Part shown: positions 9,396-56,503 of the stretch, piece after piece
Numbering within the stretch: the stretch's first letter is position 1
How the letters are laid out: each line of letters begins with the position of its first letter
Source: a virus
Length of the DNA stretch: 64,000 nt
Direction: 5' to 3' (one strand)
IMG/VR virus record: IMGVR_UViG_3300042731_001312
Span: 37,110 to 101,109 of that record
The notes under the pieces: model-generated
What the model was told of the DNA's origin: nothing
Databases searched by the model: none
What the model saw: the letters and a program-made list of their open reading frames with translations, nothing else
Program-made: the position numbers and the translations under genes

Positions 9396-9767
9396 ATGAG
9401 AACATTTAATGAATATTTAGTAGAGCAAAAGATTACTGAGACTGATATGCAACTCTTACAAGAGGGTTTACAGTCTGAGTGGACTCCTGAACTAGAAGAA
9501 AAGGTAGATCTAGCTCTAGAACAATTTGTAACACAGTACCTAAACGAAGAGACTGGGCAATTTGATTTAGATAGATTAGAAGAAGATATAATTGAAGAGG
9601 GTCTACTAGGTTCTATTATTGGTGGTCTAACTGGTTTTGCATTAGGCAAATCAATTGGTAAAATGATCGCTAAGGTTCTCGGTATTCAAAAAGGTATCTT
9701 CTACGATTTATTAACCTCCAGATTAGTCGGTGCTGCCCTAGGCGCTGCAATGGGAAAAAGAATCTAA
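9396..9767 (+). CDS. Small internal head protein candidate with capsid-targeting-like N-terminus
   Basis: 123 residues. The N-terminus MRTFNEYLVEQ resembles the T4 capsid-targeting peptide (MKTYQEFIAE in IPIII). Two T4 prohead-protease-type sites follow, LQE/G at about 27 and IEE/G at about 68. The last third is Gly/Ala-rich and hydrophobic (GSIIGGLTGFALGKSIG, LVGAALGAAMGKRI), like a glycine-zipper membrane segment. A late-promoter-like element lies immediately upstream. An internal protein released by proteolysis, perhaps membrane-active, is an inference; no named family is recognised. Confidence 0.75.
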   Translation: MRTFNEYLVEQKITETDMQLLQEGLQSEWTPELEEKVDLALEQFVTQYLNEETGQFDLDRLEEDIIEEGLLGSIIGGLTGFALGKSIGKMIAKVLGIQKGIFYDLLTSRLVGAALGAAMGKRI

Positions 9768-14079: not shown

Positions 14080-15588
14080 ATGGAACTAAGTTTAACAGAT
14101 AATAAGCAGTTTCTACGTGTTGATGAGGCGAGTGAGTTAGAGATAGAACAGCTTAACATCACTTTTAATCGTAGGATTGAGAACTGGCGATTCCACCCTC
14201 TTGTGAAAAAGGGTTTATGGGATGGCTATATCTCATATATTAAGGATGATAAATGGATTCCTTCTGGCTTATGGAAAGAGATAATGGACCTGTGTAAGCA
14301 GTATAAGTTTGAGCTTAAGATGAATGGCGTTACCTCGTTGTTCGATCCTAGTGTAAAGCAAGAAGAGTTCACAGAGTGGGCAGAACAGTATTTCGACGGC
14401 CATGAAATTACACCTAGAGACTATCAGATTGAGGCCGCATATAATATCTTAAGGTTTAGAAGATGTCTAAGTGAATTAGCAACATCAGCAGGTAAAACCC
14501 TGATAACGTATATGGCTCTTGCGTATATGTTAGAGAAGGGTAAAGCAGGCAGAGTATTACTTATTGTCCCAAACGTTTCGCTAGTCGTACAGGCCTCTGA
14601 GGACTTCATGGACTATAACTGGCGTGCAGCTACTAATATTAAAATACAACAGATCTACTCTGGTCAGAAAGTAAGACCCGGTAGAAACGTGGTAATCGGT
14701 ACATATCAATCCCTAGTTAAAAAGGATAAAGAATACTTTGAGCAGTTTGACGCTGTAATTATTGATGAGACTCATAAAGCCAAATCCACATCAATTAAAA
14801 CTATTCTACAAAAGTGTACTGCTGCAAACTATCGTTTTGGTTTATCGGGTACAATTCCAAAACCAAAAACATTAGATAGATTAACCTTAATGTCTCACAC
14901 CGGACCTGTGATTACAGAGGTTAATGCAAACTTCTTACAACAAGAAGGCCACATTGCAGGTTGTAATGTGAAAGTAATTAAAATGGATTATGCTCCACAA
15001 AGTACAAAGAATGCTTTTAGAGAGATGTCCCAAAACAGATATGAAAGTAAAGACGTTTTCAAATTCGAAAGCAATTATGTCATCAATTCAACAGGCCGCC
15101 TTAGTTTCATTTGCAACATTATTTCCAGAGTACGCGGCAATAGCCTTGTACTTTTCCACAGGATTGAACATGGTAAGAGAATCTATGAGAAACTTCGCCA
15201 AGATAGCGATAAGCCAATTTACTATGTTGATGGCAACACCGATAAAGACATCCGTGAAGAATATAAGAAGAAAATGGAAGCTGGCGCCCAGGTTGTTATT
15301 GTGGCTTCTTACGGTACATTTTCTACTGGTATTTCTATTAAAAAAATACACAATATCTTCTTTACAGAATCGTTTAAGTCGGAAGTCATAATTAGACAAT
15401 CGATCGGTCGAGGTCTAAGAAAACACCACACCAAATCAGAGGTTAATATTATTGATTTTGTAGATGATTTAAGCTCACCGGACTGGGATAATTACCTTAT
15501 CAGACACGCGAAGGCTAGGCAGAAGATCTACAAGGAGCAGAAGTTCCCTTTTGAGATAAAAAATGTAACTTTTGACGGTGATATATAA
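14080..15588 (+). CDS. uvsW: UvsW-type DNA/RNA helicase
   Basis: 502 residues, almost exactly T4 UvsW length. Superfamily 2 motifs are clear: Q-motif region TPRDYQIEAAYNIL, Walker A TSAGKT at 135-140, DETH box at 229-232, LSGTIPK, and late motifs ending RQSIGRGLRKH. An N-terminal UvsW-specific domain (FHPLVKKGLWDGYI) is present. UvsW remodels R-loops and recombination forks and helps switch replication mode. The stop codon is formed by the GATATATAA element, which probably drives the next gene. Confidence 0.92.
   Translation: MELSLTDNKQFLRVDEASELEIEQLNITFNRRIENWRFHPLVKKGLWDGYISYIKDDKWIPSGLWKEIMDLCKQYKFELKMNGVTSLFDPSVKQEEFTEWAEQYFDGHEITPRDYQIEAAYNILRFRRCLSELATSAGKTLITYMALAYMLEKGKAGRVLLIVPNVSLVVQASEDFMDYNWRAATNIKIQQIYSGQKVRPGRNVVIGTYQSLVKKDKEYFEQFDAVIIDETHKAKSTSIKTILQKCTAANYRFGLSGTIPKPKTLDRLTLMSHTGPVITEVNANFLQQEGHIAGCNVKVIKMDYAPQSTKNAFREMSQNRYESKDVFKFESNYVINSTGRLSFICNIISRVRGNSLVLFHRIEHGKRIYEKLRQDSDKPIYYVDGNTDKDIREEYKKKMEAGAQVVIVASYGTFSTGISIKKIHNIFFTESFKSEVIIRQSIGRGLRKHHTKSEVNIIDFVDDLSSPDWDNYLIRHAKARQKIYKEQKFPFEIKNVTFDGDI
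15580..15588 (+). promoter_or_regulatory. Late-promoter-like GATATATAA overlapping the uvsW stop
   Basis: Exact 9-mer; its last three bases are the TAA stop of uvsW, giving a C-terminal Asp-Ile. It lies 36 bases before the ATG at 15625. Confidence 0.65.
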
Positions 15589-15624: not shown

Positions 15625-17475
15625 ATGGGTTCATTAAAACTACAATCTTTTGAAGAGTTTGCAAACGCTTCTGCAAAGGCAGCTGCTGTAAAACTTGAAG
15701 AGGAACAAAGCGCTGCAAGAAACGCTGCAGCAGATCAATTTAAATCTCTATTAGCCGAGTTCGGCGCTACATCATTAAAAGATCTTAACGAAGAGGAAAG
15801 AGGCAAGTTTTACGCTAAACTTGGTGCTTCTGAAATCTCTGAGTCTGTAGCAATCATCGAAGAAGGCACGAGATCTCAAGTAGGTAGAATTACTAAAAGA
15901 GGTAAAATCGAATCAGTGTATATGCACTATGATGGTTATCCAGACCACATGCTACCTACAATTAAAAAAGGATATAAGGACGGAGCTAACGTTCAACTAC
16001 TGTTGAAGAAAGGAGGTGGCTCAGGCCTGGAAGCAGATCCAGCAAAGATTAATTTCTATGGAGATAAGCATGTATTGAAAGGTGACGCTAAAAATATTGA
16101 TAAGTATCTAAAGGATGCTGACTATGATGGTGGTGCAGAATTCGTTTACCTATATGATGAAAGAGATGGTAAATGGTATATGGCTGACATCTATGGCGGC
16201 GGTGGTTTAACACCAGCATTTGAGTCATTTATTATTAACGAAGCGTTTGTACCTTCTAAGGGTAATTTAAGAGACGCTAAGAAAGTGTCTAAGTCGTTAG
16301 AGCAAATTATGATGGAAGCGGTTGCTTTAACTAGAGATAAAGAGACTCACCTAGGCGCAGTAAAATACTTATTAATGTATGCACTAGAAGATGCTAACTT
16401 CCACAGCTATATGGAACCCGTAGCTAAGAAGATTGGCGGAAAGATCAGAACTATTATGGTATCGATCGATGAACTAGGTGGTATTGAACTTCCTATCGGT
16501 GCAAAAACAATCCAAAAATTCCTAGACCAAAGATACTCTAATTTATCTAGCGCAGCTGGATGGTCAGGTATCGGTCTTGTTGAGGGTGTTGCAATGTATC
16601 TAGATGGATGGGGCTTCTCAAAAGAGGCTCAAGCAATCGTAGATCAATTTAATCTAATCTGGCAAAATGAGTCAGTAATGAATGAGGGTAATGCATTCCT
16701 AGCAGCAAGAGCAAAAGCAATCGAGGAAGATGCTGAAGAGTTCGAGTTTAACGGTAAGACTTACCCGGTTATTAAAGAATCTGATGAGGCTATCTGTGAA
16801 GCAACTGTTGAGATGGATGCATTAGATCCAGATAATAAAGACTTCTTAAAGTTCTTAAAGAAGAACAGGGTTAAAATCATTAATAAAGTTATGGACGGTC
16901 CAGGCGGAGGTACACCAGTTATTACAATGCAGGGTAAAAGAAAAGACCTTGAAAAAGTATTAGCAGATCCAGAACTTGGTTGGGACGATCCAGATTTAGC
17001 AGAATATATTGAAGAAGGTAACGCTTTCGGTGCTGCAAGAGCTGAGGCTATTGCTAAAGGTGATGACAAATTCAAAGTAGGAGACGAAGAATATCCAGTT
17101 GAAGACGTTGACGCTGAAGATAAAGAGAACGCTGAAGAGTTTGCAGCAGAAGGTAATGCTTTCGGTGCTGCAAGAGCAGAGGCTATCGCTAAAGGCGAAA
17201 AAGAATTTACAGTAGACGGAGAAACTTACCCGGTTGAAGACGTTGACGCTGAAGATAAAGAGAACGCTGAAGAGTTTGCTAACGAAGAAGCAGTTACAGA
17301 GGCTGAAGTAAAATCAGACGAAGATTTTAAAGAGTATGCATTCTCTGTTTTACAAAAAGCATTCGGTGATAAATTTGATGAAGAAAAAGCACAAGAAGTT
17401 GTAGACGGTTTATTGTCTAAGCACGGTGAAGATTATGGTGCAGCAGTAGGTGCATTACAATCGTCATTAGGATAA
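15625..17475 (+). CDS. Large internal head protein with targeting peptide and repeats
   Basis: 616 residues. The N-terminus LQSFEEFANAS resembles T4 capsid-targeting peptides, followed by an IIEE/G protease-type site at about 79. Next comes a domain with VYMHYDGYPDHML, a pattern I associate with phage proteins of unknown function; then helical segments and further NE/A or NE/G junctions (FIINE/A, SVMNE/G). Three copies of an EGNAFxAARAxAI...YPV unit follow, two of them 45-residue tandem repeats. The end is a small helical domain. Probably packaged in the prohead and processed; enzymatic activity is not evident. Confidence 0.82.
   Translation: MGSLKLQSFEEFANASAKAAAVKLEEEQSAARNAAADQFKSLLAEFGATSLKDLNEEERGKFYAKLGASEISESVAIIEEGTRSQVGRITKRGKIESVYMHYDGYPDHMLPTIKKGYKDGANVQLLLKKGGGSGLEADPAKINFYGDKHVLKGDAKNIDKYLKDADYDGGAEFVYLYDERDGKWYMADIYGGGGLTPAFESFIINEAFVPSKGNLRDAKKVSKSLEQIMMEAVALTRDKETHLGAVKYLLMYALEDANFHSYMEPVAKKIGGKIRTIMVSIDELGGIELPIGAKTIQKFLDQRYSNLSSAAGWSGIGLVEGVAMYLDGWGFSKEAQAIVDQFNLIWQNESVMNEGNAFLAARAKAIEEDAEEFEFNGKTYPVIKESDEAICEATVEMDALDPDNKDFLKFLKKNRVKIINKVMDGPGGGTPVITMQGKRKDLEKVLADPELGWDDPDLAEYIEEGNAFGAARAEAIAKGDDKFKVGDEEYPVEDVDAEDKENAEEFAAEGNAFGAARAEAIAKGEKEFTVDGETYPVEDVDAEDKENAEEFANEEAVTEAEVKSDEDFKEYAFSVLQKAFGDKFDEEKAQEVVDGLLSKHGEDYGAAVGALQSSLG
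17014..17283 (+). repeat. Two tandem 135-base coding repeats, third divergent copy at 16684
   Basis: Units at 17014-17148 and 17149-17283 each encode 45 residues (EGNAFGAARAEAIAKG... YPVEDVDAEDKENAEEFA). A more diverged copy begins at 16684. They are coding, in register, and acidic at the ends. Confidence 0.9.
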
Positions 17476-17493
17476 ACAAAAACCAAACTTCTT

Positions 17494-18765
17494 ATGAAGA
17501 TTTATACAAACTTTCAAGAATTCTTAAACGAAAAAGTCCAGGTTAATAACTTGGACAATTTCGTATTTGAAGGTGGCGCCGCGGGCCACATGATGCACCC
17601 GTTTGATGACCATTCATTAACATTTGGTGATTTTAAAACTATCGTAAGATCTGCTTTACAAGGAGGTCTAGATTTTGAAGAGGCACCAACTGAAAAGACA
17701 GATGGCCAGAATGTATTCGCAACAGTAAAGGACGGTAAGGCTATGTTTGCCAGAAACAAGGGGCAATTAGCTAATCCACTTGACCTAAACGGTATTATTG
17801 AGATGTTTACTGGCCACGCTTCAAAGCTAGTTGAAGAAACATTCATCTTCGCCGCTAAAGATTTAGCAGAAGCACTGCCAAAGATCAAGGACCAATCGGT
17901 ATTCATGGACGGTAGGGCTTTTATCAACATGGAGCTTATTTACTCTAAGAACCCTAATGTAATCTATTACGACAGAGATGTTATTCAATTCCACGGTATG
18001 AAAGTTACCGATGGTAATGGTAATATCATTAGTGAAGAGAATATCGCAGCAGATATTGTAAAAGCACTACAAGACTTAAAGGCCGATGTGCAAAAGACCT
18101 TTACTATAATTCCCCCTCAAATTTTAAAGATAGGAAAAGACATTAACTTTGACGAGAGAGTCGGCTATTACGAAAAGGCGATAAATAAACTAAGAGATAC
18201 TTATAGTCTATCGGATCAAGATGAGGTTAAAATGTATCACGAGGCTTGGTGGAGAAACCAAATCGAAGAGAATTTTGCAGATTTAGACCCGGCATTAAAA
18301 GAGGGACTCTTATTAAGATGGGCGTACCTAGACAAGAAGACTCTAAATATGAGAGAGTTAAAGAAGGCAGTTACTCCAGAACAAGCAAAGGCCGTTAAAG
18401 ATTTTGATGGTCAAAGAAACAAGAAGTATAAAGAAAACATTCTACCTTTTGAGAACTTATTTTTAGAATTAGGCGCAGATGTTTTAAAGAATGTTTCTAA
18501 TTTTGTTGCTGCTAATCCAGAAGCTGAGAAAGCAAGATTACACAAGCAGATCAGAACTGAAGCTGACAAGGTTAAAAAGAACGGCGATCTAAAACAGATT
18601 GAGAAGGTAGAAAAAGAATTAAAAAGACTAGAAGGTATCGGCGGTATTGAGTCAATCATTCCAACCGAGGGCCTAGTCTTTAAATACAATGGTAAAACAT
18701 TCAAGTTAACTGGGACTTTTGCCGCTATTAACCAGTTAATGGGTATTATTAAATACGGTAGATAA
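17494..18765 (+). CDS. Nucleotidyltransferase of the DNA/RNA ligase superfamily, capsid-targeted candidate
   Basis: 423 residues. Ligase-superfamily motifs are in order: motif I TEKTDGQN with the candidate adenylated lysine K68, motif III-like VFMDGRAFINMELI, motif IV TEGLVFKY and motif V FKLTGTF. The N-terminus MKIYTNFQEFLNEK looks like a T4 capsid-targeting peptide, followed by FVFE/GGAAG, a plausible prohead-protease site; GHMMHPFDD comes next. It probably joins or adenylates nucleic acid ends, perhaps after injection. Substrate, DNA or RNA, cannot be told. It sits directly before a second ligase-family gene. Confidence 0.8.
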   Translation: MKIYTNFQEFLNEKVQVNNLDNFVFEGGAAGHMMHPFDDHSLTFGDFKTIVRSALQGGLDFEEAPTEKTDGQNVFATVKDGKAMFARNKGQLANPLDLNGIIEMFTGHASKLVEETFIFAAKDLAEALPKIKDQSVFMDGRAFINMELIYSKNPNVIYYDRDVIQFHGMKVTDGNGNIISEENIAADIVKALQDLKADVQKTFTIIPPQILKIGKDINFDERVGYYEKAINKLRDTYSLSDQDEVKMYHEAWWRNQIEENFADLDPALKEGLLLRWAYLDKKTLNMRELKKAVTPEQAKAVKDFDGQRNKKYKENILPFENLFLELGADVLKNVSNFVAANPEAEKARLHKQIRTEADKVKKNGDLKQIEKVEKELKRLEGIGGIESIIPTEGLVFKYNGKTFKLTGTFAAINQLMGIIKYGR

Positions 18766-18774
18766 TAAACTATT

Positions 18775-20637
18775 ATGGCATTACAGAATTTAAAAACATA
18801 TTTCGAAGGCGCTAACATATCAGACGTCGATAATCTTCTTAGCAACAAGTGTATTGTAACCGAGAAGATTGATGCATCTTCTTTTCACGTCAAAAGAGAC
18901 GGATCTGATTTTTTATTCTATAAGTCTGGCTCTAAACAAGAAATGGATCTAGTAGATCGCACGATTGTTAGATACTACGAGAATGCTATTAGATACTTTA
19001 GATCTGTATCTGAAGGCGCTGTAAAAGACATGCCATTCGACTGGAAATTTGGTTTTGATTATTTAGTAGATAATAAGACTGTTGATATTGAGTATGACAT
19101 ACTTCCAAAGTCTAATCTTATTCTAACGCATATCCAAGTTTTGCAACCATCTAATCCTACTAAGATTAGAAAGGTAATTAGAGACACTAAGGTCCTAAAT
19201 AAATGGGCAGATAAGTTAGGTGTCGCTGGACCTCCAGTTTTATTTGAGGGTCTATTAGACTCGGGCCAGAAAGATGCAATTAAAGCTCTATTGGCGATGT
19301 CAGTTAATGAGTTTGAGCAGAAATTTGAAGATAAAGATAAGCCTACATTTACTAGAAACGTCTTTGGTATTTTTAACCAGAACATGAAGCAATCAGCTTT
19401 AATGAATGACCTGTCTAAGGATGTTGCTGGCTTTATTGTTAACTTCCATGATGGAAAAGAGTTGAAGTCTTTTAAACTAGAGAAGTTTAATAAAAAACCG
19501 GCTGAAGAGAGAAAACCTTCAGACATGTATCAAATCACAATCTTAGATATTGTAGAGCACTTAACTCAATTTGACTTTGAATCAATACAACTAAAAGAAG
19601 AGCAATCAGATTTAAGATATTTAGAACTAATGTCAGGTGTTTTTAATGACTATGTCGAAAAGAATGCTACTAAATATATTGGCGCTAAATTTGATTCTGC
19701 TGACTTTTCAGAATCTCCTCTATTTGAATTAAACCACAAGTTTATTCAAAATGAAAAGACCTTAACATTAGTACAAGATAGAATCTTATCAGAGCTATTT
19801 AAAATTACATTAGGTTCTTTTAGAAAGAAGAGAAATAAAGAAACAGATATTATCAATGCCGATCTAATGAATACTATCAACGATATTGTAGAAAAGATTG
19901 AGGGTACGGTGATGGCAAAAACAAACGAAGGCGACGTTATGAATTTCAATCAATATTTATTAAACCAAAAGATTTCGGCACAAGTTAGTCCAATCACAGA
20001 GGGTTTAACTGTTAATTATCCAGAACAGGGTAGTAAGCCAGTTAACATGTTTGTTGGTAGATTCCAACCATTCACGTTAGGTCATGCTAAGGTGGTTGAA
20101 ACTATCTACAAGCAAAACGGACATCCAGTAGTTATCTTCTTAATTAAGTCTAAAACTAGAAAGGCAGAAGATGCATTTAAGAGACCTTATGATGAAGAAA
20201 CTCAAATGTCAATGTTAGACAAATTAAAGTCTAAATATCCTATTGAGAAAGTTTATATCTTAGATAGAGCAGCAATTGATCTAATGTTTAATACAATGAG
20301 AGCTGATGGCTACGAGCCAGTACTTTGGGGAACAGGAACTGATAGACTTAAGACCTATTCATACCAAGTCGATAAGCCAGAATATAGAGAAGATCTTGGA
20401 GTGAGAGATGATTTCGGTTTATTTGAAATACCAAGGACAGGTAAGAATATCTCAGCTACTCAGGTTAGAAACGCAATGTTAGATAACGACGAGAAGATGT
20501 TTAAAAAATTAACACCCAAAGGCATCCATAGTATGTATGGAGAATTAAAAACTAAATTAGAGGATTCAATGGGAGTAGTTGCGGAGTCATCGCAACCAGA
20601 GTTCTTAACCTTCGAAGCCTTTTTGAAGAATATATAA
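18775..20637 (+). CDS. RNA-ligase-like enzyme fused to NMN-adenylyltransferase-like domain
   Basis: 620 residues. The N-terminal half has ligase motifs: I TEKIDASSF (K31), III KFGFDYLV, IV VAGFIVNF, V FKLEKF. Residue 389 is an internal Met starting MNFNQYLLNQ, a capsid-targeting-like peptide, with SPITE/G as a protease-like site. From about 425 comes a HIGH-class nucleotidyltransferase: GRFQPFTLGHAKVV and ISATQVRNAM, as in NadM/NadR-type NMN adenylyltransferases. The C-terminus ends FLTFEAFLKNI, again targeting-like. It may couple end repair with NAD synthesis. The fusion and internal peptides are seen; the activities are inferred. Confidence 0.8.
   Translation: MALQNLKTYFEGANISDVDNLLSNKCIVTEKIDASSFHVKRDGSDFLFYKSGSKQEMDLVDRTIVRYYENAIRYFRSVSEGAVKDMPFDWKFGFDYLVDNKTVDIEYDILPKSNLILTHIQVLQPSNPTKIRKVIRDTKVLNKWADKLGVAGPPVLFEGLLDSGQKDAIKALLAMSVNEFEQKFEDKDKPTFTRNVFGIFNQNMKQSALMNDLSKDVAGFIVNFHDGKELKSFKLEKFNKKPAEERKPSDMYQITILDIVEHLTQFDFESIQLKEEQSDLRYLELMSGVFNDYVEKNATKYIGAKFDSADFSESPLFELNHKFIQNEKTLTLVQDRILSELFKITLGSFRKKRNKETDIINADLMNTINDIVEKIEGTVMAKTNEGDVMNFNQYLLNQKISAQVSPITEGLTVNYPEQGSKPVNMFVGRFQPFTLGHAKVVETIYKQNGHPVVIFLIKSKTRKAEDAFKRPYDEETQMSMLDKLKSKYPIEKVYILDRAAIDLMFNTMRADGYEPVLWGTGTDRLKTYSYQVDKPEYREDLGVRDDFGLFEIPRTGKNISATQVRNAMLDNDEKMFKKLTPKGIHSMYGELKTKLEDSMGVVAESSQPEFLTFEAFLKNI
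20629..20637 (+). promoter_or_regulatory. Late-promoter-like AATATATAA overlapping a stop codon
   Basis: One-base variant of GATATATAA; its TAA is the stop of the ligase-NMNAT fusion gene. It lies 19 bases before the ATG at 20657. Confidence 0.5.
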
Positions 20638-20656
20638 ACAAACAGATTATATTAAT

Positions 20657-21040
20657 ATGAGAAATATAAAAACATTCGAAGCGTTTAAAAACTCAGTAAA
20701 TGAGTCAATTCAATTCGGTTCTTATTATTATAGTACTAGAACAGCATTCGGTGAGCATAGTGACAACCTACCAGAAAAAGGCAATACAAAGTATTTAGTA
20801 TTTGCACATAATGAAGTAGATTTCTATGGCCAAAGAATTAGATTAGAAAACGGCGGTAGCAATAAACAACATATCGGCATTTTTGACGATGAGGCTAGTG
20901 CGGCAGACGCGTACAATACTGCTATGAAAAAACCAGATGGTGTTTATATTTCATTCTCAATGGGAACACTTTACGCAAAGTCTAAGTTCTCATTCCAATA
21001 TGAAGAAACACAGGGTAAACTAGCAAAAATTAAAGCATAA
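20657..21040 (+). CDS. Small internal head protein candidate
   Basis: 127 residues, N-terminus MRNIKTFEAFKNSVNES, matching the targeting-peptide pattern (aromatic-acidic-x-Phe) and followed by possible cleavage Glu residues. The rest is a compact alpha/beta domain (TKYLVFAHNEVDFYGQRIRLE, HIGIFDDEASAADAYNTAM), no recognised family. It lies between two larger proteins with similar N-termini, 2 bases before the next gene. Confidence 0.75.
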   Translation: MRNIKTFEAFKNSVNESIQFGSYYYSTRTAFGEHSDNLPEKGNTKYLVFAHNEVDFYGQRIRLENGGSNKQHIGIFDDEASAADAYNTAMKKPDGVYISFSMGTLYAKSKFSFQYEETQGKLAKIKA

Positions 21041-21042
21041 TC

Positions 21043-23535
21043 ATGGCAACATTTGAAGACTTTTTATCAGAAGGTAAAAAAATACAAATCAAAAGAAAGT
21101 ATACAGAGAATCACCCTGCACAAACAGTGGGCAAGACTGCTAATGTAAGAAATGCAGTACTTAAAGCAATTGCTGATGGTATGGTAACAAGAGAAGAGTT
21201 TAACTCTATTATTGCTGAACTTTCTGCTAATTCTAGCCAATGGGCTTCTAGAAATAGAAAATACTTTAATGTTTCTGAAGAGGGCATTAAGCTTTCAAGA
21301 TGGGGTCGTAGAATTCTAGCTGAACTAGATGAAACTCCTAAAGCTGCTGAACTTAACGAGAAAGTTAAAGTTACAAAAGATAAATTCCCATACATTGAGT
21401 TTAAAGATGGTGGTAAGAAGTATGAAGTAGAATTTGACCAAGGTGATATTATTGACGACCACGGTAACGAGGGTAAAGACTGGTATTATGTCGGCGTTGA
21501 CCAATTTGGCGATGAGTGGGAAATTGATGTTTACACTGATTTCAGAGATGAGCCAGAAGATTGGTTTCATGATACTATTAAGAGAGTTGATGAGTCAAAA
21601 GTTAATGAAGCTAAATTTGTAAAAGAATTTGATAAAGCAGTTCTAGATGCTGAAACAGAACAAGATGTTTTAAAAGTATATCCTACAGCTGAATTTTATG
21701 TAGGTAAAATGTCACACTTCTTTGGAGAACTAGAACCAAACTTATTCTTTAAAGCTTATTATGCAGATTGGTATAAGAAAGATACTGGTAAATCAATTAA
21801 AGGTGACTTTAAAATTACTACAATCTACTCAGAGAAGGGTAGTAGATACGTAAACTTATATGTAGAAGAATCTGCAGTTACTGAAAACTATGAAGTAATC
21901 TGGTCTGACGGAATGAGAGGCCTGAAGAAATTCAGAAATGAAAGACAGGCTAGACAATATTTCGACGATAAGATCAAACAAAAGGGTATGAGAGATGTTG
22001 CTTTATATAGAGCAGGCTCTGGTTTTCACTCAACAACACAAACAGAATATGTAATTGCATTTTGGGGTGATGGCACTTACCTGGATAACGTATCTAAGAG
22101 AGATGCAGATCTAGCAGCTAAAAAAGTAGAAGAATCAGTAGTTAACGAGGCATTCAAATTCGGTACTAAAAATCAGTACTCAATGGATGATGTTAATGAT
22201 GGCTATGGTTTTTGGGGTACTTTAGAAATGCACTACGATGAAAAAGAGGTACAAGACCACTGGTTAGTCGCGTTTATTCACCTAACAGGTAACTTAGGCT
22301 TCTCTGATGCAGGTGCATTATATTTCCTAAACGCGAAATCAGGTAGATGGTTAGCAGATCAAGTTAACGATAAAGAGGGTATGAACTTTGATCTAATAGA
22401 TGTAATGGATGCATACGCAAAATCATCTCAATGGAAAAAATGGGCAAAAGAATATAACGACTATGCCCAAGAAGAATTAGCAGAAAATAATAATACAAAT
22501 ATGAAAACAGAATTCCTATTCGAGTCATTTAGTGATTTCGTTGGCGCTAATTTTCTCAACGAGAAATTAGGTAGCCAGATTATGGCTGATATTTTTATGT
22601 CTAATAAGCAAGGCAAAGCTGCTGCGCAAAACATTAAAACCTTAGCAAGGGGTTTTTATGGTATGGCTAAAGTAGCCCTAGATAAAATCCAGGATGAAGA
22701 TTTTATTGTGAGTAACGATCCAGGTAAAGTATTTAAAAATTACGGCGGACCTAACCACATTTTATTCTTTATTTCAGATAACGAGAAAGAGAACCCATAC
22801 TTCCCAGTAGATTCTTATGGTTCATTAAGAACAATCCCGGGCGGTGGTATTCTACTAGCAGCAATGTCTGGTGATAGAATGTTCTTCGCTAACGAGTGGT
22901 CTAGATGGTCAGGTGGCGGAACTTGGACTAAGCAAAAGAAGGGTGATGAAAGCCAAATTGGTGTTTCTCATAGATATAGAGGCTGGGATGCAACCGGACT
23001 TAACAACGGTAAGAGAATCTCAGAAGTTTCTGATAGAGTAATTGTACTTAACCTAGATTTAGTAAGACAAAAGTATTCTACTGCTCAATTAAGAGATGCT
23101 AGAGCTGCTGCTAAAGCAGGAGCTACCGCGTTCCAATCTGATAAAGACTTCAAGAAGGCTAATATGGCTAGATACCAACAGATTTTAGCCAATAAAGCAG
23201 CAAGCCTACCTTTAGACAGTATGGTTGAAGGTGCGATCGATATGTTGACTAAGCAGATCCAAGACGGTTTAAAGAAAGGTGAGAAGACTCAGTATAATGA
23301 AATTAAAATTGGAGAATCTCCTAAAGGTAGAGAAGTAAAAGCTAGAGATGCTTCTAGCCACATGTCTTCTATTCTTGATGACTACCAAAGATATTGTGAC
23401 TATGTTAAACAGGCTGAAGAGTCAGAGGCTAGATATGGAGAAAGAGAGTCTTACTATGAAAGAGAGTCTAAAGATTACGCGAAAAGAATTAAAGATAAGA
23501 TTAACAAAATAGAAACATTCGATTACGCTTGGTAA
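21043..23535 (+). CDS. Multidomain internal head protein, polyprotein-like
   Basis: 830 residues, starting MATFEDFLSEGKK, a targeting-like peptide. At least four domains are separated by similar acidic junctions: DESKVNE/A, EESAVTE/N, EESVVNE/A, and ELAENNNTNMKTEF. At residue 487 an internal ATG (22501) follows an AATAATAATACAAAT stretch and begins a second targeting-like peptide, LFESFSDFVGANFLNEK. A following region (YGGPNHILFFISDN, HRYRGWDATGLNNGKRISEV) looks like a folded enzyme-like domain that I cannot name. The C-terminus is coiled coil. Probably cleaved by the prohead protease into separate packaged proteins. Confidence 0.8.
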   Translation: MATFEDFLSEGKKIQIKRKYTENHPAQTVGKTANVRNAVLKAIADGMVTREEFNSIIAELSANSSQWASRNRKYFNVSEEGIKLSRWGRRILAELDETPKAAELNEKVKVTKDKFPYIEFKDGGKKYEVEFDQGDIIDDHGNEGKDWYYVGVDQFGDEWEIDVYTDFRDEPEDWFHDTIKRVDESKVNEAKFVKEFDKAVLDAETEQDVLKVYPTAEFYVGKMSHFFGELEPNLFFKAYYADWYKKDTGKSIKGDFKITTIYSEKGSRYVNLYVEESAVTENYEVIWSDGMRGLKKFRNERQARQYFDDKIKQKGMRDVALYRAGSGFHSTTQTEYVIAFWGDGTYLDNVSKRDADLAAKKVEESVVNEAFKFGTKNQYSMDDVNDGYGFWGTLEMHYDEKEVQDHWLVAFIHLTGNLGFSDAGALYFLNAKSGRWLADQVNDKEGMNFDLIDVMDAYAKSSQWKKWAKEYNDYAQEELAENNNTNMKTEFLFESFSDFVGANFLNEKLGSQIMADIFMSNKQGKAAAQNIKTLARGFYGMAKVALDKIQDEDFIVSNDPGKVFKNYGGPNHILFFISDNEKENPYFPVDSYGSLRTIPGGGILLAAMSGDRMFFANEWSRWSGGGTWTKQKKGDESQIGVSHRYRGWDATGLNNGKRISEVSDRVIVLNLDLVRQKYSTAQLRDARAAAKAGATAFQSDKDFKKANMARYQQILANKAASLPLDSMVEGAIDMLTKQIQDGLKKGEKTQYNEIKIGESPKGREVKARDASSHMSSILDDYQRYCDYVKQAEESEARYGERESYYERESKDYAKRIKDKINKIETFDYAW

Positions 23536-23536
23536 T

Positions 23537-24733
23537 ATGCCTTCTGTAAGTAAGTCACAACAAAGATTAATGGGAATGGCCTATGCTGTTAAATCCGGCG
23601 ATATGGAACTCTCAGACATTGACCCAGCTTACAGAGATAAAGTAAAATCATTATCTGACGGAATGACAAAGAAAGACTTAAAGAAATACGCTGCAACAAA
23701 GCATGATGGTCTACCAGAGACGGTGGATGAGGCATTTATTGGACCTTTTGTATTTAATGACAGTATGTCTGATGAAGAATTACTAGGAATGTACAATGGA
23801 GCATTAGATGGCTATGCTAACTATGCTAAAGGAATGTATTACCCTAAATCGGATTACAAGAAAGCTTATCAAGAAATTGAAAAGATTTTAAAGAAGAGAG
23901 GAGTTTCAGTAGACGAAAGTGCACAAGGGGCTGTATCTTTAAATCCAGGCATGACTATCGGTGGTATTGGTGACCCGATGCTTCCAACAGCAACTGAATT
24001 TGGATCGGGCGACGTACCTGCAGTAGCAGATATTGACGACGACGAAGAAGAGGCTAAAAAAGATAATACAAAAACAAAGTTAGAGATGGAAAATTTACAT
24101 TTAACTTTCGATAGTTTCTTAAATGAAGCTTCTAATTTTAACGATCCAGTTTTAGTAGCTTTTAGAGCTGCTAGAATGAAGAGGGAAGAAGAGCTTGCAA
24201 AACCAAAGCGCAAGCCCCTTTATGGTAAACAAAGACAAAAAGCTGAAGATGATCTGTGGAATATTAGCCAAGACTTAAAAGATCTATATGCAGATAGAGG
24301 TCAAATGTTAATTGACATGGAACAAGAAGCAGAGGCTGAAGGTGGTCCAATTGCAGACGAATACGGAGGCAAATTAAATGATATTGAAGATCAAATTCAA
24401 GCGCTAATTGTTAAGAGAAATAAACTTGAAATGAAATTAGCAGAATCAGTAGTTAATGAAAAGAAGCTAGATAGAGAAGACATGATGGCTTGGATCGAAC
24501 AACACATGGATTTTGTAAGAACTACTGAAGAATTCAACGGTTCTCCAGGTGGCATCTGGGTTTCAGGTGAGAATGGCGACGAGTATAAAGGTAGAGTAAT
24601 CTATGCATACTACTCTGAAGACTACAAGAACAGAACATTTGGTGTAGATAACAGATGGGAAAAGGAACTTAATAAAAGAGGGTGGTATAGTGAATGGCAT
24701 GATGCAGGCACATCCATGATTTGGCCACTATAA
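23537..24733 (+). CDS. DUF3008-containing internal head protein with capsid-like motif
   Basis: 398 residues. Residues 1-62 (PSVSKSQQRLMGMAYAVKSG ... ATKHDGLPE) match the small DUF3008 family. Residues about 131-160 contain SLNPGMTIGGIGD and FGSGD, closely matching the N-terminal arm of the major capsid protein (SLNPGMTLAGMGD, NGSGD). An acidic stretch and an internal Met at 184 (24086) begin MENLHLTFDSFLNEAS, a targeting-like peptide. A coiled coil, then AESVVNE/K and a C-terminal domain (WIEQHMDFVRTTEEF) follow. It closes the late block before a terminator. Confidence 0.8.
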   Translation: MPSVSKSQQRLMGMAYAVKSGDMELSDIDPAYRDKVKSLSDGMTKKDLKKYAATKHDGLPETVDEAFIGPFVFNDSMSDEELLGMYNGALDGYANYAKGMYYPKSDYKKAYQEIEKILKKRGVSVDESAQGAVSLNPGMTIGGIGDPMLPTATEFGSGDVPAVADIDDDEEEAKKDNTKTKLEMENLHLTFDSFLNEASNFNDPVLVAFRAARMKREEELAKPKRKPLYGKQRQKAEDDLWNISQDLKDLYADRGQMLIDMEQEAEAEGGPIADEYGGKLNDIEDQIQALIVKRNKLEMKLAESVVNEKKLDREDMMAWIEQHMDFVRTTEEFNGSPGGIWVSGENGDEYKGRVIYAYYSEDYKNRTFGVDNRWEKELNKRGWYSEWHDAGTSMIWPL

Positions 24734-51230: not shown

Positions 51231-51569
51231 ATGAAAATTATTAAAACATTTGAAGAGTTTATCCAGGAGGATGCCCTAAAAGCAGGCGAGGAGTCTAAGG
51301 TCTACGTTGAAGATCTGAAATTAGACTCAGGTGCAACTATTAAATCTGCTGAAATTTTAGGTGCTATCACCGCGTCTGCAACCGAGAACGATTTTAAAGA
51401 TTATTTCTTTAATGAGTACGGTAATGATGCATTCGCAGAGGGTGAAATGGACATCTTAGTAAAATACTACCTAGACAAATCCGCTGAAGAAGCTGAAGAG
51501 GAAAAAGAAGCCGAGAAGGAAGAAGGCGAAGAAGGCGGCGAGGAAGAAGATCCATTAGCTGGCATCTAA
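51231..51569 (+). CDS. 67: Small acidic prohead core protein, T4 gp67-like
   Basis: 112 residues. N-terminus MKIIKTFEEFIQEDALKAG resembles the T4 IPIII targeting peptide, and the last 25 residues are highly acidic (EEAEEEKEAEKEEGEEGG). Place between portal and protease matches T4 gene 67, a small acidic core protein cut by gp21. Probably part of the prohead core. The gene number is by synteny and composition only. Confidence 0.75.
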   Translation: MKIIKTFEEFIQEDALKAGEESKVYVEDLKLDSGATIKSAEILGAITASATENDFKDYFFNEYGNDAFAEGEMDILVKYYLDKSAEEAEEEKEAEKEEGEEGGEEEDPLAGI

Positions 51570-51632: not shown

Positions 51633-53819
51633 ATGGCAAAATTAAATGACTTATTGATTGTCGAAATGTCTTCGTCTCAATTGAGCGTCGCTCAATCAGA
51701 GAACAAAGATTATATTCTAGAGGGTATCTTTGGAGAAATTGACTCCAAAAATAAAAATAATCGTATCTATACTGAAGATGAGTATGTACCTCAGATTCAG
51801 CAACTGCAAGATAAGATTAAATCATCAAAGCTATTAGGTGAGTTAGATCACCCACAGCAATTTGATGTTTCCCTAAAGAATGTATCACACATTATCGAAG
51901 AACTTTATTACGACAAAGACAACAAACAAGTAAAAGGTAAAATCAGACTTTTAGATACTGATGCTGGTAGACAAGCTAAAGCTCTTGTTGATGCAGGTGT
52001 ACCTTTACAAATTTCTTCTAGAGCGGCAGGTGCTGTTGAATCTAATGGTAAAGTAAAAATCAAGCAATTATTTACTTATGACCTAGTAGCAGATCCTGGT
52101 TTCGCTAATGCCGAGTTAAAGAGAGTAAACGAATCTTATGGATTCGATAACGAATCAGGTCTATGGATCTATGAAATGAACGGCGAAGGAGAAGTTGCAC
52201 AAGAAATTACTGAAACCAATATTGAAACAAATAATAATAAAAACATGGCAGAATTTGTAAAGGCTGAAGATTTCCACAAGTATTCTGAGTACTTAGCTGG
52301 TGAAATTAAGTCAATTAAAGAGTCTATCGACGCGAAAAGCGAAGATACTACGTTAGAGAACGTAAAGTCTCATAACGACCACATCGTCGAAAGCGTAAAT
52401 ACTCTCTCAGAATACGTAGAGTATTTAGCCGGCAAATTAGACGAGTCAATTCAATATACAGAGCATGTTGCTGAGAAAGCTGACCAAGGTATTTCTTACA
52501 CTGAGACTGTTGCAGAAAAATTAGATCAAGGTATTCAATACTCTGAGCACTTAGCTGAAGCTATCGGTAAAGTTAAGGATTTCGCTAATTATTTAGCTGA
52601 AGCACACAATGAAGGTACAGATACTGCTAAGAATTTATTATCTTATGTAGAATACTTAAAAGAAAACCTACAATCTGTTTCTGAGTATGCTGAATATATC
52701 GCAACACAAATCAATGAAAATTTAGTAACTGAAGAAGAAACTGAAGAAGTAGCTGAAGAAGAAGTTGAAGAAACTGAAGAGGCACACCACGAAGAAGTTG
52801 AAGAAACTGAAGAAGTAGCTGAAGAAGATGAGGCTGGTGAAGGTGCTGAAGAAGTAGTTGACGAAGAAGACGAAGCTGGTGAAGGTGCTGAAGAAGTAGT
52901 TGACGAAGAAGATGAGGCTGGTGAAGGTGCTGAAGAAGTAGTTGACGAAGAAGAAGTAGCTGAAGAAGATGAGGCTGGTGAAGGTGCTGAAGAAGTAGTT
53001 GACGAAGAAGAAGCTGCAGAAGAAGTTGAAGAAACTGAAGAAGTTACTGAAGACGATGATGCTGAAGAGCCTGGTCAAGAAAAAGAAGACGCTGAAGATG
53101 ACATCGAAGAAATTGGTGACAATTCAGAAGAAGGTGATGTAGATCCTAAAGGTGACATCGGTGAGCCTGCAGAAGAATTAGAAGATGAAACTGTAAAATC
53201 AGACGCTGAAGTTGAAGATGAGACTGAAGAGGCTGAACCAGGTGAGTCTGAAGAAGAGGCTGAAGGTGAAGATGGCGCACACGACCCATTAGAATCTTAC
53301 AAAAAAGAAATTTCATCTAAATTAGACGCTCTAGTTGAAGCTGCACAGGTTAAAGAAAATGAAAACCCATCTTTCTTTAAGATTGTATCTGCCACAACTC
53401 AAGAGAAATATAACGCTCTAAATGAAGATGCTAAAACTGAAGTTAGACAAAAGGTTGCTAAGAGAGGTTTCATGACTGAAGCACAAATCAACGCTATCGT
53501 TGAAAGTGCAGAAGCAGTAGTTGAATCTAGAAACTCTGAGCCTTTCTTTATCACTGCAATGCCTGCAGAGTACAAAGAGAAATTTGAAGCTCTAACTGAA
53601 GCAAAACAAAATCAAATCAAAGCTCAAGCTAATTACCATACTCTAAATACTGAGTATCAAGTTAGAAACTTCTGGGAAACTAGAGATCTAAGAGAGGTAA
53701 AAGTTGACCTAGAAAAATTACAAGCGGTAAACGAATCAGCAGTAAAATCTGATGAGAAGAAGCCACTTTATGATGTTTCTAACTACGCTGATAGCTTAAA
53801 GAAAAGATTTAAAAAGTAA
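51633..53819 (+). CDS. 21: Prohead protease fused to scaffold (gp21-gp22-like)
   Basis: 728 residues. Residues about 20-165 match the gp21 prohead protease: YILEGIFGEIDSKNKNNRIY, GELDHP with candidate His 73, PLQISSRAAGAVE with candidate Ser 128/129, and FTYDLVADPGF. After about 200 come coiled coils with repeated YSEYLAGE/YVEYLAGK/YSEHLAEA patterns, then a very acidic repeat zone, then a helical C-terminus (YADSLKKRFKK). This second half looks like a gp22-type scaffold. An internal ATG at 52245 (residue 205) after an A/T-rich stretch could give free scaffold. T4 keeps the two as separate genes. Confidence 0.88.
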   Translation: MAKLNDLLIVEMSSSQLSVAQSENKDYILEGIFGEIDSKNKNNRIYTEDEYVPQIQQLQDKIKSSKLLGELDHPQQFDVSLKNVSHIIEELYYDKDNKQVKGKIRLLDTDAGRQAKALVDAGVPLQISSRAAGAVESNGKVKIKQLFTYDLVADPGFANAELKRVNESYGFDNESGLWIYEMNGEGEVAQEITETNIETNNNKNMAEFVKAEDFHKYSEYLAGEIKSIKESIDAKSEDTTLENVKSHNDHIVESVNTLSEYVEYLAGKLDESIQYTEHVAEKADQGISYTETVAEKLDQGIQYSEHLAEAIGKVKDFANYLAEAHNEGTDTAKNLLSYVEYLKENLQSVSEYAEYIATQINENLVTEEETEEVAEEEVEETEEAHHEEVEETEEVAEEDEAGEGAEEVVDEEDEAGEGAEEVVDEEDEAGEGAEEVVDEEEVAEEDEAGEGAEEVVDEEEAAEEVEETEEVTEDDDAEEPGQEKEDAEDDIEEIGDNSEEGDVDPKGDIGEPAEELEDETVKSDAEVEDETEEAEPGESEEEAEGEDGAHDPLESYKKEISSKLDALVEAAQVKENENPSFFKIVSATTQEKYNALNEDAKTEVRQKVAKRGFMTEAQINAIVESAEAVVESRNSEPFFITAMPAEYKEKFEALTEAKQNQIKAQANYHTLNTEYQVRNFWETRDLREVKVDLEKLQAVNESAVKSDEKKPLYDVSNYADSLKKRFKK
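52245..52247 (+). promoter_or_regulatory. Candidate internal start for free scaffold
   Basis: In-frame ATG at residue 205, preceded by ACAAATAATAATAAAAAC, which looks like this phage's intergenic leaders and encodes a NNNKN linker. It would yield a 524-residue scaffold beginning MAEFVKAEDFHKY. Confidence 0.5.
52821..53003 (+). repeat. Four 42-base acidic coding repeats
   Basis: Units at 52821-52862, 52863-52904, 52905-52946 and 52962-53003 (a 15-base insertion before the last) encode EEDEAGEGAEEVVD. DNA copies are nearly identical, so the array could change length by slippage. Confidence 0.92.
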
Positions 53820-53931: not shown

Positions 53932-55326
53932 ATGGCAAATTTAATTAACGAAGCTGAGATCAGAAATACTTGGGCTCCTATTATCGAGGAAGCTACTGGT
54001 ATCAATGAATCAGCAAAACTAGCTTGGATGTCGGAATACTGCCACAATCACAAGCTTTATGAAGATGCTAACATCGTATCTCTTAACCCAGGTATGACAT
54101 TAGCAGGTATGGGTGACACTGCGTTCCCAACATCAACTGCAAACGGTTCTGGTGACAAAGCTCCAACTTTATTACCATTAGCAATGCAAGTTGCTGCACA
54201 AACTATCGGTCTTGATTTAGTACCTGTAGTTCCTATGGCTGGTCCAATGGGTCTACTTTCTTACCTAGACTTCGTATACGAAGGTGGTACTTTAGGTGGT
54301 GCTAAGCCTAACTACGCTGACGGTCGTGTTGCTCCAACTTACATCAAAGCTACTGCAGGTGCTGTTGTAGCAGATGCTACTTACGCAACTAAGTTAGATC
54401 AAAAGTCAAGAATTGACGGTAAAGACATCTGGAAAATCGAAGACGCAGGTCAAGCTGCTATCGGTGCTGAAGAGTCTTACGTTGACTTATTCACATCTAT
54501 TTCAGGTGTTGAATTAGTTGCTGCTCTAGAAGACCACATTCCTGGTTTCTCTGGTGCTAACGATGCAGGCGCGCCAATGTCAAGAGGTTTAGGTGAATCT
54601 ACTCCTGACAAAGTAATGGGTCTAAGCTTATTCTCTAAGTCAGTTTCTGCAGAAACTTTCCAAGTTGCTGCTGCTGTAACTAGAGAGCAAGTTCAAGATC
54701 TTAAGCAATTCGGTGTTGACGCTGTTGCTCAAGTAGAAGCAGTTTTAACTAACGAATTGACTCAGTCAATCAACAACCACATCTTAACCAAGATGAGATC
54801 TATCGCTGGTGAAAACCTATTCGGTGCTGGTCAGAAATTAGATCTAGATCTTTCTGCTGGTGAAACTAAAGGTGACGCACACAGAAGAATCTTAACAGCT
54901 ATCTTAGCTTCTGCGAACTTAATCGCTCAAAGAGGTAGAAGAGGTGCTGGTAACTTCGCTGTAGTAGGCGGTAAAGTTGCTTCTGCATTACAAGGTGTTG
55001 CTGGTTTCGTTGCTTACCCAATGGCTAACACTGTAAACCAAGTTGCTGGTGCAATCTATCCTTTAGGTTCGATCGCTGGTATCAACGTTTACACTGACCC
55101 ATCAATCTCTTTCGACTCAGTAGAAGTACTAGTTGGTAGAAAAGGTGACGGTAACGGTCCAGGTCTTGTATTCATGCCTTACTTAATGGCTGAATCAGTA
55201 CAAGCTATCGTTGAAGGCACAATGGCTCCTAAAGTAGCTGTTAAGTCTAGATACGCTCTAGTTGAAGCTGGTTTCCACCCAGGTACTCAATACGAGAAAT
55301 TTGAACTAGAAAACTTCAATCTATAA
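53932..55326 (+). CDS. 23: Major capsid protein, T4 gp23-like
   Basis: 464 residues. The N-terminal region IRNTWAPIIEEATG...SAKLAWMSEYCHNHKLYEDA aligns with the T4 gp23 pro-segment (LLNKWKPLLEG...), and LYE/D at residue 44 is a possible prohead-protease cut, before SLNPGMTLAGMGD. VVPMAGPMGLLSYLDFVYEGG, VTREQVQDLKQFGVDAVAQVEAVLTNELTQSINNHIL and AQRGRRGAGNFAVVG match gp23 conserved blocks. Codon choice shifts to GGT, GCT, GAC, AAC, TTC compared with neighbours, as for a very highly expressed gene. Followed by a terminator. Confidence 0.95.
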   Translation: MANLINEAEIRNTWAPIIEEATGINESAKLAWMSEYCHNHKLYEDANIVSLNPGMTLAGMGDTAFPTSTANGSGDKAPTLLPLAMQVAAQTIGLDLVPVVPMAGPMGLLSYLDFVYEGGTLGGAKPNYADGRVAPTYIKATAGAVVADATYATKLDQKSRIDGKDIWKIEDAGQAAIGAEESYVDLFTSISGVELVAALEDHIPGFSGANDAGAPMSRGLGESTPDKVMGLSLFSKSVSAETFQVAAAVTREQVQDLKQFGVDAVAQVEAVLTNELTQSINNHILTKMRSIAGENLFGAGQKLDLDLSAGETKGDAHRRILTAILASANLIAQRGRRGAGNFAVVGGKVASALQGVAGFVAYPMANTVNQVAGAIYPLGSIAGINVYTDPSISFDSVEVLVGRKGDGNGPGLVFMPYLMAESVQAIVEGTMAPKVAVKSRYALVEAGFHPGTQYEKFELENFNL

Positions 55327-55406: not shown

Positions 55407-55432
55407 ATCATAAGAAACATAAATTGATTAAT

Positions 55433-56503
55433 ATGCTTAATACAAATAAAATCAAATTGTTTGAAGAATTTTCAGCTGGTGAAATCACTAGACCTGAACA
55501 AAATGTAGCTCCCGCTGCTAAAACACAAACAGATTCGATCGCAGTTGACAAGACTGATGGTGCTCAAATTAGAGCAGAGATTATCAAAGACGTTGATGCT
55601 ATTTTAACTAATCTAGAAACTCTATCAACTAGAATCCAAGAAAATCTTAATGGACTTAAAGCAGATGTTGAGGCTGGCGTAGCTGACGAAGACATCCTAG
55701 AAGCCCTTGTAACTATTAACGAAGCCGGCGAAATGAGCAAAAAGCTAATGGATATTATCTGGTATAAGCCAAAGGCTAAAAAGGCCATGGATAAAGTTAA
55801 TAAGATCAAACAAAATGCAGTTGCTATCGATATAGCTGCAAAAGGACTAGACGGTAGTGATGATAAAGAAAAGGCTAAGAAAGATGCTTTAAAATTAAAG
55901 GCAGATTCTGCTAAGAAGAAAGCTGATGATTTAGAAAAGGCAGTTAGAGACAAATTCTCAGATAGAAGTGAAGTTGTAAAAAAGGCTATCGCTAACAAAG
56001 ATATTGAAGGTAGATTAGATGCTATCAAACAAGAGACCGGTATGTCTGATGACCCAAAGAAAAAAGCAGAGCTTAAAAACCAAATGGGTGAACTACAAAC
56101 TCAATTAAAGAAAGAGGAAGACGCTATTAAGCAAATTGAGAAAGACGTTGATCCTGCTGAAGTTGATAATGCAAAACAAGAAATGAAAGATCATCAAGAG
56201 GCTATTAAAGCTTTAAAGAAAGATGGCTGGAAAGATGGTGGACTTCCAAAAGATAAAGAGGGTGAAACCAAAACGATGACTGGACCTGATGGCGATAAGC
56301 AAATATTCCATAAAGTAGGAAAGGCTCCAGCTGGTAAAGGCTCTCCATCCGGTTCCGGAGCAAATGAATCTATTGTTAAAGATGGTTCAGGTAGAACTAA
56401 AGCAGAAAAGATTAATTTAGATACTTTAGAAGAAAAACAAGATCCAATTATTTATGAAGGTATGAGTATTTCTGATAAATTTAAAGCTTTAATGAATAGG
56501 TAA
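55433..56503 (+). CDS. Internal head protein candidate, Lys/Glu-rich
   Basis: 356 residues from the ATG at 55433. N-terminus NKIKLFEEFSAGEI fits the targeting-peptide pattern. Then a helical domain (VDAILTNLETLSTRIQENLNGLK ... KKLMDIIWYKPKAKKAMD), long charged coiled coil, a Gly/Pro/Ser-rich stretch and a short C-terminal peptide (YEGMSISDKFKALMNR). Basic and acidic residues alternate, as in internal or scaffold-like proteins. Sits just downstream of the capsid gene with its own late promoter and terminator. Confidence 0.78.
   Translation: MLNTNKIKLFEEFSAGEITRPEQNVAPAAKTQTDSIAVDKTDGAQIRAEIIKDVDAILTNLETLSTRIQENLNGLKADVEAGVADEDILEALVTINEAGEMSKKLMDIIWYKPKAKKAMDKVNKIKQNAVAIDIAAKGLDGSDDKEKAKKDALKLKADSAKKKADDLEKAVRDKFSDRSEVVKKAIANKDIEGRLDAIKQETGMSDDPKKKAELKNQMGELQTQLKKEEDAIKQIEKDVDPAEVDNAKQEMKDHQEAIKALKKDGWKDGGLPKDKEGETKTMTGPDGDKQIFHKVGKAPAGKGSPSGSGANESIVKDGSGRTKAEKINLDTLEEKQDPIIYEGMSISDKFKALMNR

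Follow-up and report, generated by a model that had tools for sequence, protein, structure and literature searches.

The genes at 15625-24733 of the 64,000-nucleotide window analysed here (the whole stretch of DNA, positions 37110-101109 of a 101-kb IMG/VR virus fragment) most probably form a phage-head cargo cassette, whose products carry T4-type tags and would dock on the scaffold, be matured as polyproteins by a gp21-type protease and exit with the DNA. The sequence basis of this reading is the recurrence of the tag, a junction motif, the protease, a scaffold array and a copy of the capsid arm; the presence of tagged enzymes in virions of relatives is supported by published mass spectrometry, and for the present phage we infer packaging, docking, cleavage, injection and cargo function. 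The system is of a known kind, the head address code of T4, to which it adds apparent polyproteins, tags at C-termini, copies of the capsid arm and a scaffold sharing the code. An earlier note on this DNA had proposed the T4 analogy, ligase-family enzymes among the products and targeting to the head. All three proposals are supported, the first by the match of the tag to a T4-defined pattern and the last by independent published mass spectrometry on cyanophage relatives of the NMNAT-like enzyme. That reading was incomplete, as C-terminal tags, polyprotein architecture, scaffold array and capsid-arm copy were missed.

Recognisable in the window are a portal protein, the gp21-type protease, the capsid protein, gp55 and a clamp loader; the major capsid protein has its nearest counterparts in Lak phages and huge uncultured phages. 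Six plus-strand open reading frames (15625, 17494, 18775, 20657, 21043 and 23537) make up the block, not five consecutive genes as formerly counted. It is directly preceded by a helicase-like gene (14080-15588, named from sequence), which has a parallel in S-CREM2, where the annotated UvsW helicase gene is found a short way upstream of that for the NMNAT-like protein. The proposal that late-type elements drive the block found no support with the T4 consensus, and a T4 late promoter upstream of it was rejected, since the consensus TATAAATA occurs 0 times in the whole window versus 9.7 expected; other TATAAAT-N octamers are present, a pattern of possible avoidance. By Pfam and PHROG names most block modules are of unknown function, and the anti-defence models of PADLOC gave no match within the block. 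Coordinates are collected in Table 1.

Table 1. Features of the putative cargo cassette and of the head genes in window coordinates; an arrow marks a possible cut.
Feature	Position	Strand	Remark
Tagged protein MRTFNEYLVE↓Q, 123 aa, glycine-zipper C-terminus	9396..9767	+	Tag spacing identical to T4 (positions 4, 7, 8, 10)
616-aa polyprotein, N-terminal tag MGSLKLQSFEEFANA, the tag itself without LxE	15625..17475	+	
phrog_1987 module, IIEE↓GTRSQ before it	15865..16188	+	Stand-alone tagged in L042 (INE↓GTRSQ)
Internal tag FESFIINE↓A of 15625 protein	16219..16242	+	
Three GNAFxAARAxAI...YPV repeats, each right after E (NE↓, EE↓, AE↓)	16687..17298	+	
ligA: tag MKIYTNFQEFLNE↓K, disordered linker, probable covalent nucleotidyltransferase with motif EKTDG (RNA ligase-like)	17494..18765	+	
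ligB-NMNAT polyprotein: Rnl2-like ligase, linker, NMNAT-like domain, C-terminal tag	18775..20637	+	
Interdomain linker: FNQYLLN and site PITE↓G, disordered in model	19924..20001	+	
C-terminal tag FLTFEAFLKNI, kept in most homologues	20602..20634	+	
127-aa tagged protein MRNIKTFEAFKNSVNE↓S	20657..21040	+	Inside longer proteins in L051, L057, L073
830-aa polyprotein, tag MATFEDFLSE↓G (T4 spacing), junctions KVNE↓A, AVTE↓N, VVNE↓A	21043..23535	+	
Internal tag MKTEFLFESFSDFVGANFLNE↓K	22501..22563	+	
398-aa polyprotein: DUF3008, capsid-arm copy, internal tag, further module after VVNE↓K	23537..24733	+	
Copy of own major capsid protein's mature N-arm, after possible site VDE↓S	23918..24025	+	
Internal tag FDSFLNE↓A	24107..24127	+	
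gp67-position core protein, tag MKIIKTFEEFIQE↓D	51231..51569	+	
gp21-type Peptidase S77 fused to scaffold	51633..53819	+	
Scaffold array, tag-like repeats YSEYLAG, YTEHVAE, YSEHLAE, FANYLAE, YVEYLKE, YAEYIAT	52281..52718	+	
Major capsid protein gp23; inferred cut KLYE↓DAN frees N-arm (54061-54165)	53932..55326	+	
Coiled-coil-like protein, partial tag FEEFSAGE	55424..56503 (ATG at 55433)	+	

Mutagenesis of T4 IPIII (MKTYQEFIAE) assigned residues 4 and 7 mainly to targeting and residues 8 and 10 to processing (PMC9026906). The strict pattern aromatic-x-x-aromatic-[LIVM]-x-E, derived from T4 and not from the window, starts four proteins in the 101-kb record versus 0.26 in shuffles (maximum 3). 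The T4 positions (aromatic at 4 and 7, L/I at 8, E at 10) are occupied exactly in the 9396 and 21043 proteins and with three extra residues in 17494 and 51231, and the tags of 15625, 20657 and 55424 show the aromatic pair only, without canonical LxE. All seven aromatic-x-acidic-Phe peptides quoted in the earlier note are found in the translations; the tag is N-terminal on 15625, 17494, 20657 and 21043, and FNQYLLN, FESFSDF(VGANFLNE) and FDSFLNE are internal. The tags it had placed on 9396, 51231 and 55424/55433 are likewise present, the last without the LxE part, and its list can be extended by FESFIINE (residues 199-206 of the 15625 protein), the C-terminal FEAFLKNI of the 18775 protein and the scaffold array of 51633.

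A search with the ligase-like protein 17494 yielded 80 related uncultured-phage loci, in which the tag is carried by at least 40% of the members in 21 of 171 protein families, so tag-sharing among otherwise unrelated proteins far exceeds chance. With one representative per family, 19 are tagged versus 0.47 in shuffled N-termini (maximum 4); none of the 29 minus-strand families in these loci bears a tag. The logo of 113 distinct tag cores reads F/Y-E/N-E/Q/D-F/Y-L/I/V-N-E, and the commonest distances from the Met to the final tag Glu are 13 or 10 residues, the latter being the T4 spacing. The 9396 family is tagged in 54 of 67 members. Of 79 ligA homologues, 68 have the strict tag at the N-terminus and most of the rest a close variant; behind it come a linker of varying length and sequence and then the conserved domain. 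In the predicted ligA structure this linker is disordered (pLDDT <50 at residues 16-31).

Further tagged proteins were seen outside the window, namely a gene start at about 2684 of G000:C1 (L006; MKHIKLFEQFINEGMKPGK), a protein with a weak Peptidase S41 match (L042 11262-13220; MIINYNQFILEN) and proteins on both strands of the 735-kb phage LR756501 (L004; MLELNYNDFLNED, MKKFSQYINEQK and MVINFEEYSLNEKF), by which the tag code extends to the largest phages known. Translation starts at internal tags were considered and dropped, the upstream DNA being A-rich at one of three, which is not decisive; a fused start codon is not claimed for FNQYLLN because the preceding Met varies among homologues.

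The long block proteins look like head-matured polyproteins, judged from modules that occur in related loci as separate tagged proteins and from [LIV]xE at the junctions. The window module after IIEE↓GTRSQ, for instance, is the separate protein MNNIKNFNDFINESQEINE↓GTRSQ in L042. Across stand-alone and fused forms, [LIV]xE stands immediately before the domain in 19/24 cases for KRxYTEN, 8/8 for GTRxQ, 11/11 for KAYxxTG, about 16/17 for SINKIQ (shifted by one residue) and 17/28 for GNAF (19/28 with [LIVMF]xE), against a background of 2.6-3.3% per position, these five unrelated families having been picked after viewing the alignments. A sixth family, ligA (34/34), was left out of the count and dropped as an independent cleavage site because Mel-JY01, which has no tag, shows IAE↓GG too, and this glutamate may belong to the domain itself. 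The linker between ligase and NMNAT-like domain is predicted to be disordered, and in the alignment of 22 homologues all but one have it end in [LIVM]xE followed by [AG] (21 of 22). Cargo might instead lose its tag only, the long proteins staying whole and acting as multidomain 'polyvalent' proteins after injection, a known theme (PMC5512222) with which the modest site excess in the window alone ([LIV][NT]E in the block, 1.85-fold, p 0.035) would agree; this is rather unlikely, since the modules also exist on their own as tagged proteins, unrelated domains share [LIV]xE at the corresponding boundary and nearly all homologues keep the linker site.

Among the predicted enzymes, the ligB domain shows the fold of the covalent nucleotidyltransferase superfamily and a KxD motif, and Foldseek matches it to T4 Rnl2 (E 2.9e-7), with low TM-scores of 0.38-0.40 to whole-length targets; by its model it is an Rnl2-like RNA ligase domain. 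Its partner, the second domain of the 18775 protein, is NMNAT/cytidylyltransferase-like as modelled (CTP_transf_like, Pfam 2e-7; 4yp6, TM 0.74). The EKTDG, EG-VF and KLTG residues of ligA are invariant and its best structural match, T4 Rnl1, is weak (E 5e-3, TM 0.23); we regard it as a probable ligase within the covalent nucleotidyltransferase superfamily. The ligase-like neighbours in cyanophages (S-SZBM1_141 with KWDG, DUF6267) show no sequence similarity to ligA or ligB. In other phages (L001, L003), NMNAT-like and ligA domains are fused in reverse order behind different N-termini, and in L030 a CCA-adding tRNA nucleotidyltransferase (17124-18278) with a weakly tag-like N-terminus (MLESYSQYTLLLEA) follows just after the cassette. 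As counter-defence, the cargo may plausibly serve RNA repair and NAD supply when infection begins, a role put forward tentatively, with somewhat more doubt than belief.

Tags at the C-terminus recur as well. Most 18775 homologues end in LTF[ED]xF[IL]xxx, many DUF3008 proteins end alike (KTFEQFIFEKL, KSYESFIFEKY), as does the virion-listed S-SCSM1_93 (RTFKEFLEYIE), and the C-terminus of T4 Alt is likewise processed (PMC9026906).

The protein at 51633 is a Peptidase_S77 (E 1.7e-12) whose GELxHP and SSR regions match T4 gp21, the catalytic His and Ser regions being kept. Its scaffold half contains tandem copies of Y-x-[EN]-[YH]-[LIV]-A-E, four of them strict; most relatives hold 4-8 copies and several 6-8, compared to about 0.1 in shuffles. 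This resemblance suggests that cargo tags are detached scaffold repeats, and a cargo tag would likely dock on the array of the protease-scaffold fusion. A single poor copy is present in T4 gp22 and none in two cyanophage scaffolds, so docking through the array would not be general. A Met is found at the protease/scaffold junction (window 52245, Met 205 of 51633) and in all relatives whose available sequence covers the stretch (L100-L103, L106, L107, L109, L111); initiation within the gene may additionally yield the scaffold, in the manner of lambda Nu3 or herpesvirus UL26.5.

The 23537 protein shows, at residues 128-163 (SAQGAVSLNPGMTIGGIGDPMLPTATEFGSGD), a resemblance to the stretch that follows the inferred cut KLYE↓D in the capsid protein of the same phage. 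A capsid-arm profile from relatives retrieved 46 block proteins at E<=0.01, compared with zero among reversed sequences, the copies standing in about 35 distinct contexts, mostly in DUF3008-type proteins. The copy in the huge phage LR756500 resembles that phage's own arm (PGDPxxxTxFSxQ). The cyanophage capsid arm is wholly different from that of the window phage, and in a three-sequence comparison S-CREM2 gp160 and S-SCSM1_97, both on published virion protein lists, match the S-CREM2 capsid arm with 75% (E 6e-8) and 67% (E 6e-9), respectively, each over 24 residues. An arm-copy product may anchor to the inner shell. Gene conversion of the arm is not obviously recent, as nucleotide identity is 70% over 18 codons with 11 of 18 codons at identical residues alike, and the TSGAV tails of L067, L072 and L083 were too short to be judged as T4-like arm copies.

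Published virion analyses of cyanophages connect the tag to proteins detected in virions. The fixed pattern marks 3 of 217 S-CREM2 proteins, a SAM hydrolase (MKDFDSFLEE), a kinase (MKRFDAFLTE) and a cytidylyltransferase (MKNFSSFLTEA), and all three are among the 52 proteins detected in the virion (PMC10665884; p 0.013, a test based on three proteins), for which the authors state that contamination of purified particles cannot be excluded. The Cas9-like S-CREM2 protein gp12 (L118 7704-10313), also virion-detected, contains FASFMAEA at residues 19-26, and the phage may package this Cas9-like nuclease. The NMNAT-like enzymes detected in virions of S-SCSM1 and S-SZBM1 (PMC9602691, PMC9146016) start with MKSFLQFLKEA and MRFRQFIIEA; the S-SM1 homologue T4-GC190 was also detected (PMC3037559), and the tag is present on related proteins of P-SSM2 and S-SM2. 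In the open-access papers searched we found no earlier mention of the tag on cyanophage virion enzymes.

Tagged proteins could also be core or scaffold parts that are degraded or expelled at maturation like T4 gp67 and gp68, and not injected. The same tag on the gp67-position protein 51231 and the motif common to tags and scaffold speak for this reading. Folded enzyme domains with conserved catalytic motifs and the finding of tagged enzymes in mature virions of cyanophages nevertheless make it improbable. That the peptide is some other shared late-infection signal, for intracellular docking or stability, is highly improbable, as it fits the T4-defined positions, accompanies gp21 sites, is repeated in the scaffold and, in S-CREM2, is predictive of occurrence in the virion.

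For the head cargo cassette, the preferred reading, T4-type peptides at N-terminal, internal or C-terminal positions would direct each protein into the core of the prohead during assembly, where it would likely dock on the scaffold half of the fusion with its tandem array of the same peptide. At maturation, the gp21-type protease would cut after [LIV]xE, destroying the scaffold, removing the tags, freeing the N-arm of the capsid protein and splitting long cargo into modules, among them two RNA ligase-like enzymes, an NMNAT-like enzyme and several unknown domains. One product, starting with the capsid N-arm copy, may bind the inner shell, and the cargo would exit together with the DNA. A more far-reaching proposal, for which we see the case as nearly balanced, is that a single peptide code governs the entire head core: a chain of the peptide would form the scaffold, each cargo tag would be a detached scaffold repeat, and a single protease reading that code would break down the scaffold, release working enzymes from cargo polyproteins within the capsid and make an N-arm-mimicking fragment that holds to the shell.

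With T4 IPI, IPII and IPIII (PMC9026906) the phage shares the tag pattern, a gp21-family protease and the use of the tag on unrelated proteins, with exact spacing in 9396 and 21043. Unlike in T4, its tags are also internal and C-terminal, its cargo is long and multi-modular with junction sites and includes RNA ligase-like and NMNAT-like enzymes, and its scaffold, joined to the protease in one protein, contains an array of tags. Cyanophage virion enzymes (PMC10665884, PMC9602691, PMC9146016) are similarly tagged and include some of NMNAT-like fold, and DUF3008 and capsid-arm-copy proteins are there detected in virions, whereas their cargo consists of single proteins and their separate scaffold lacks the array. 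The inner-body ejection proteins of phiKZ and SPN3US are likewise large head cargo cut by a prohead protease after xxE, but with an S/A-x-E motif, long propeptides and no aromatic tag (PMC5694885); such A/S-x-E sites and long propeptides were not encountered in the block, which has short aromatic tags ending in [LIV]xE. Polyvalent proteins (PMC5512222) also combine many disparate domains in one injected polypeptide, their processing being ascribed to built-in peptidases, whereas here it would fall to the head protease at repeated sites.

The tag provides a sequence rule predicting head-carried proteins of T4-related phages and a possible explanation for the NMNAT, kinase, SAM hydrolase and Cas9-like nuclease repeatedly found in cyanophage virions. 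We propose that phage cargo is produced as polyproteins whose maturation takes place in the capsid, and imitation of the scaffold would be a testable answer to how T4-type tags dock.
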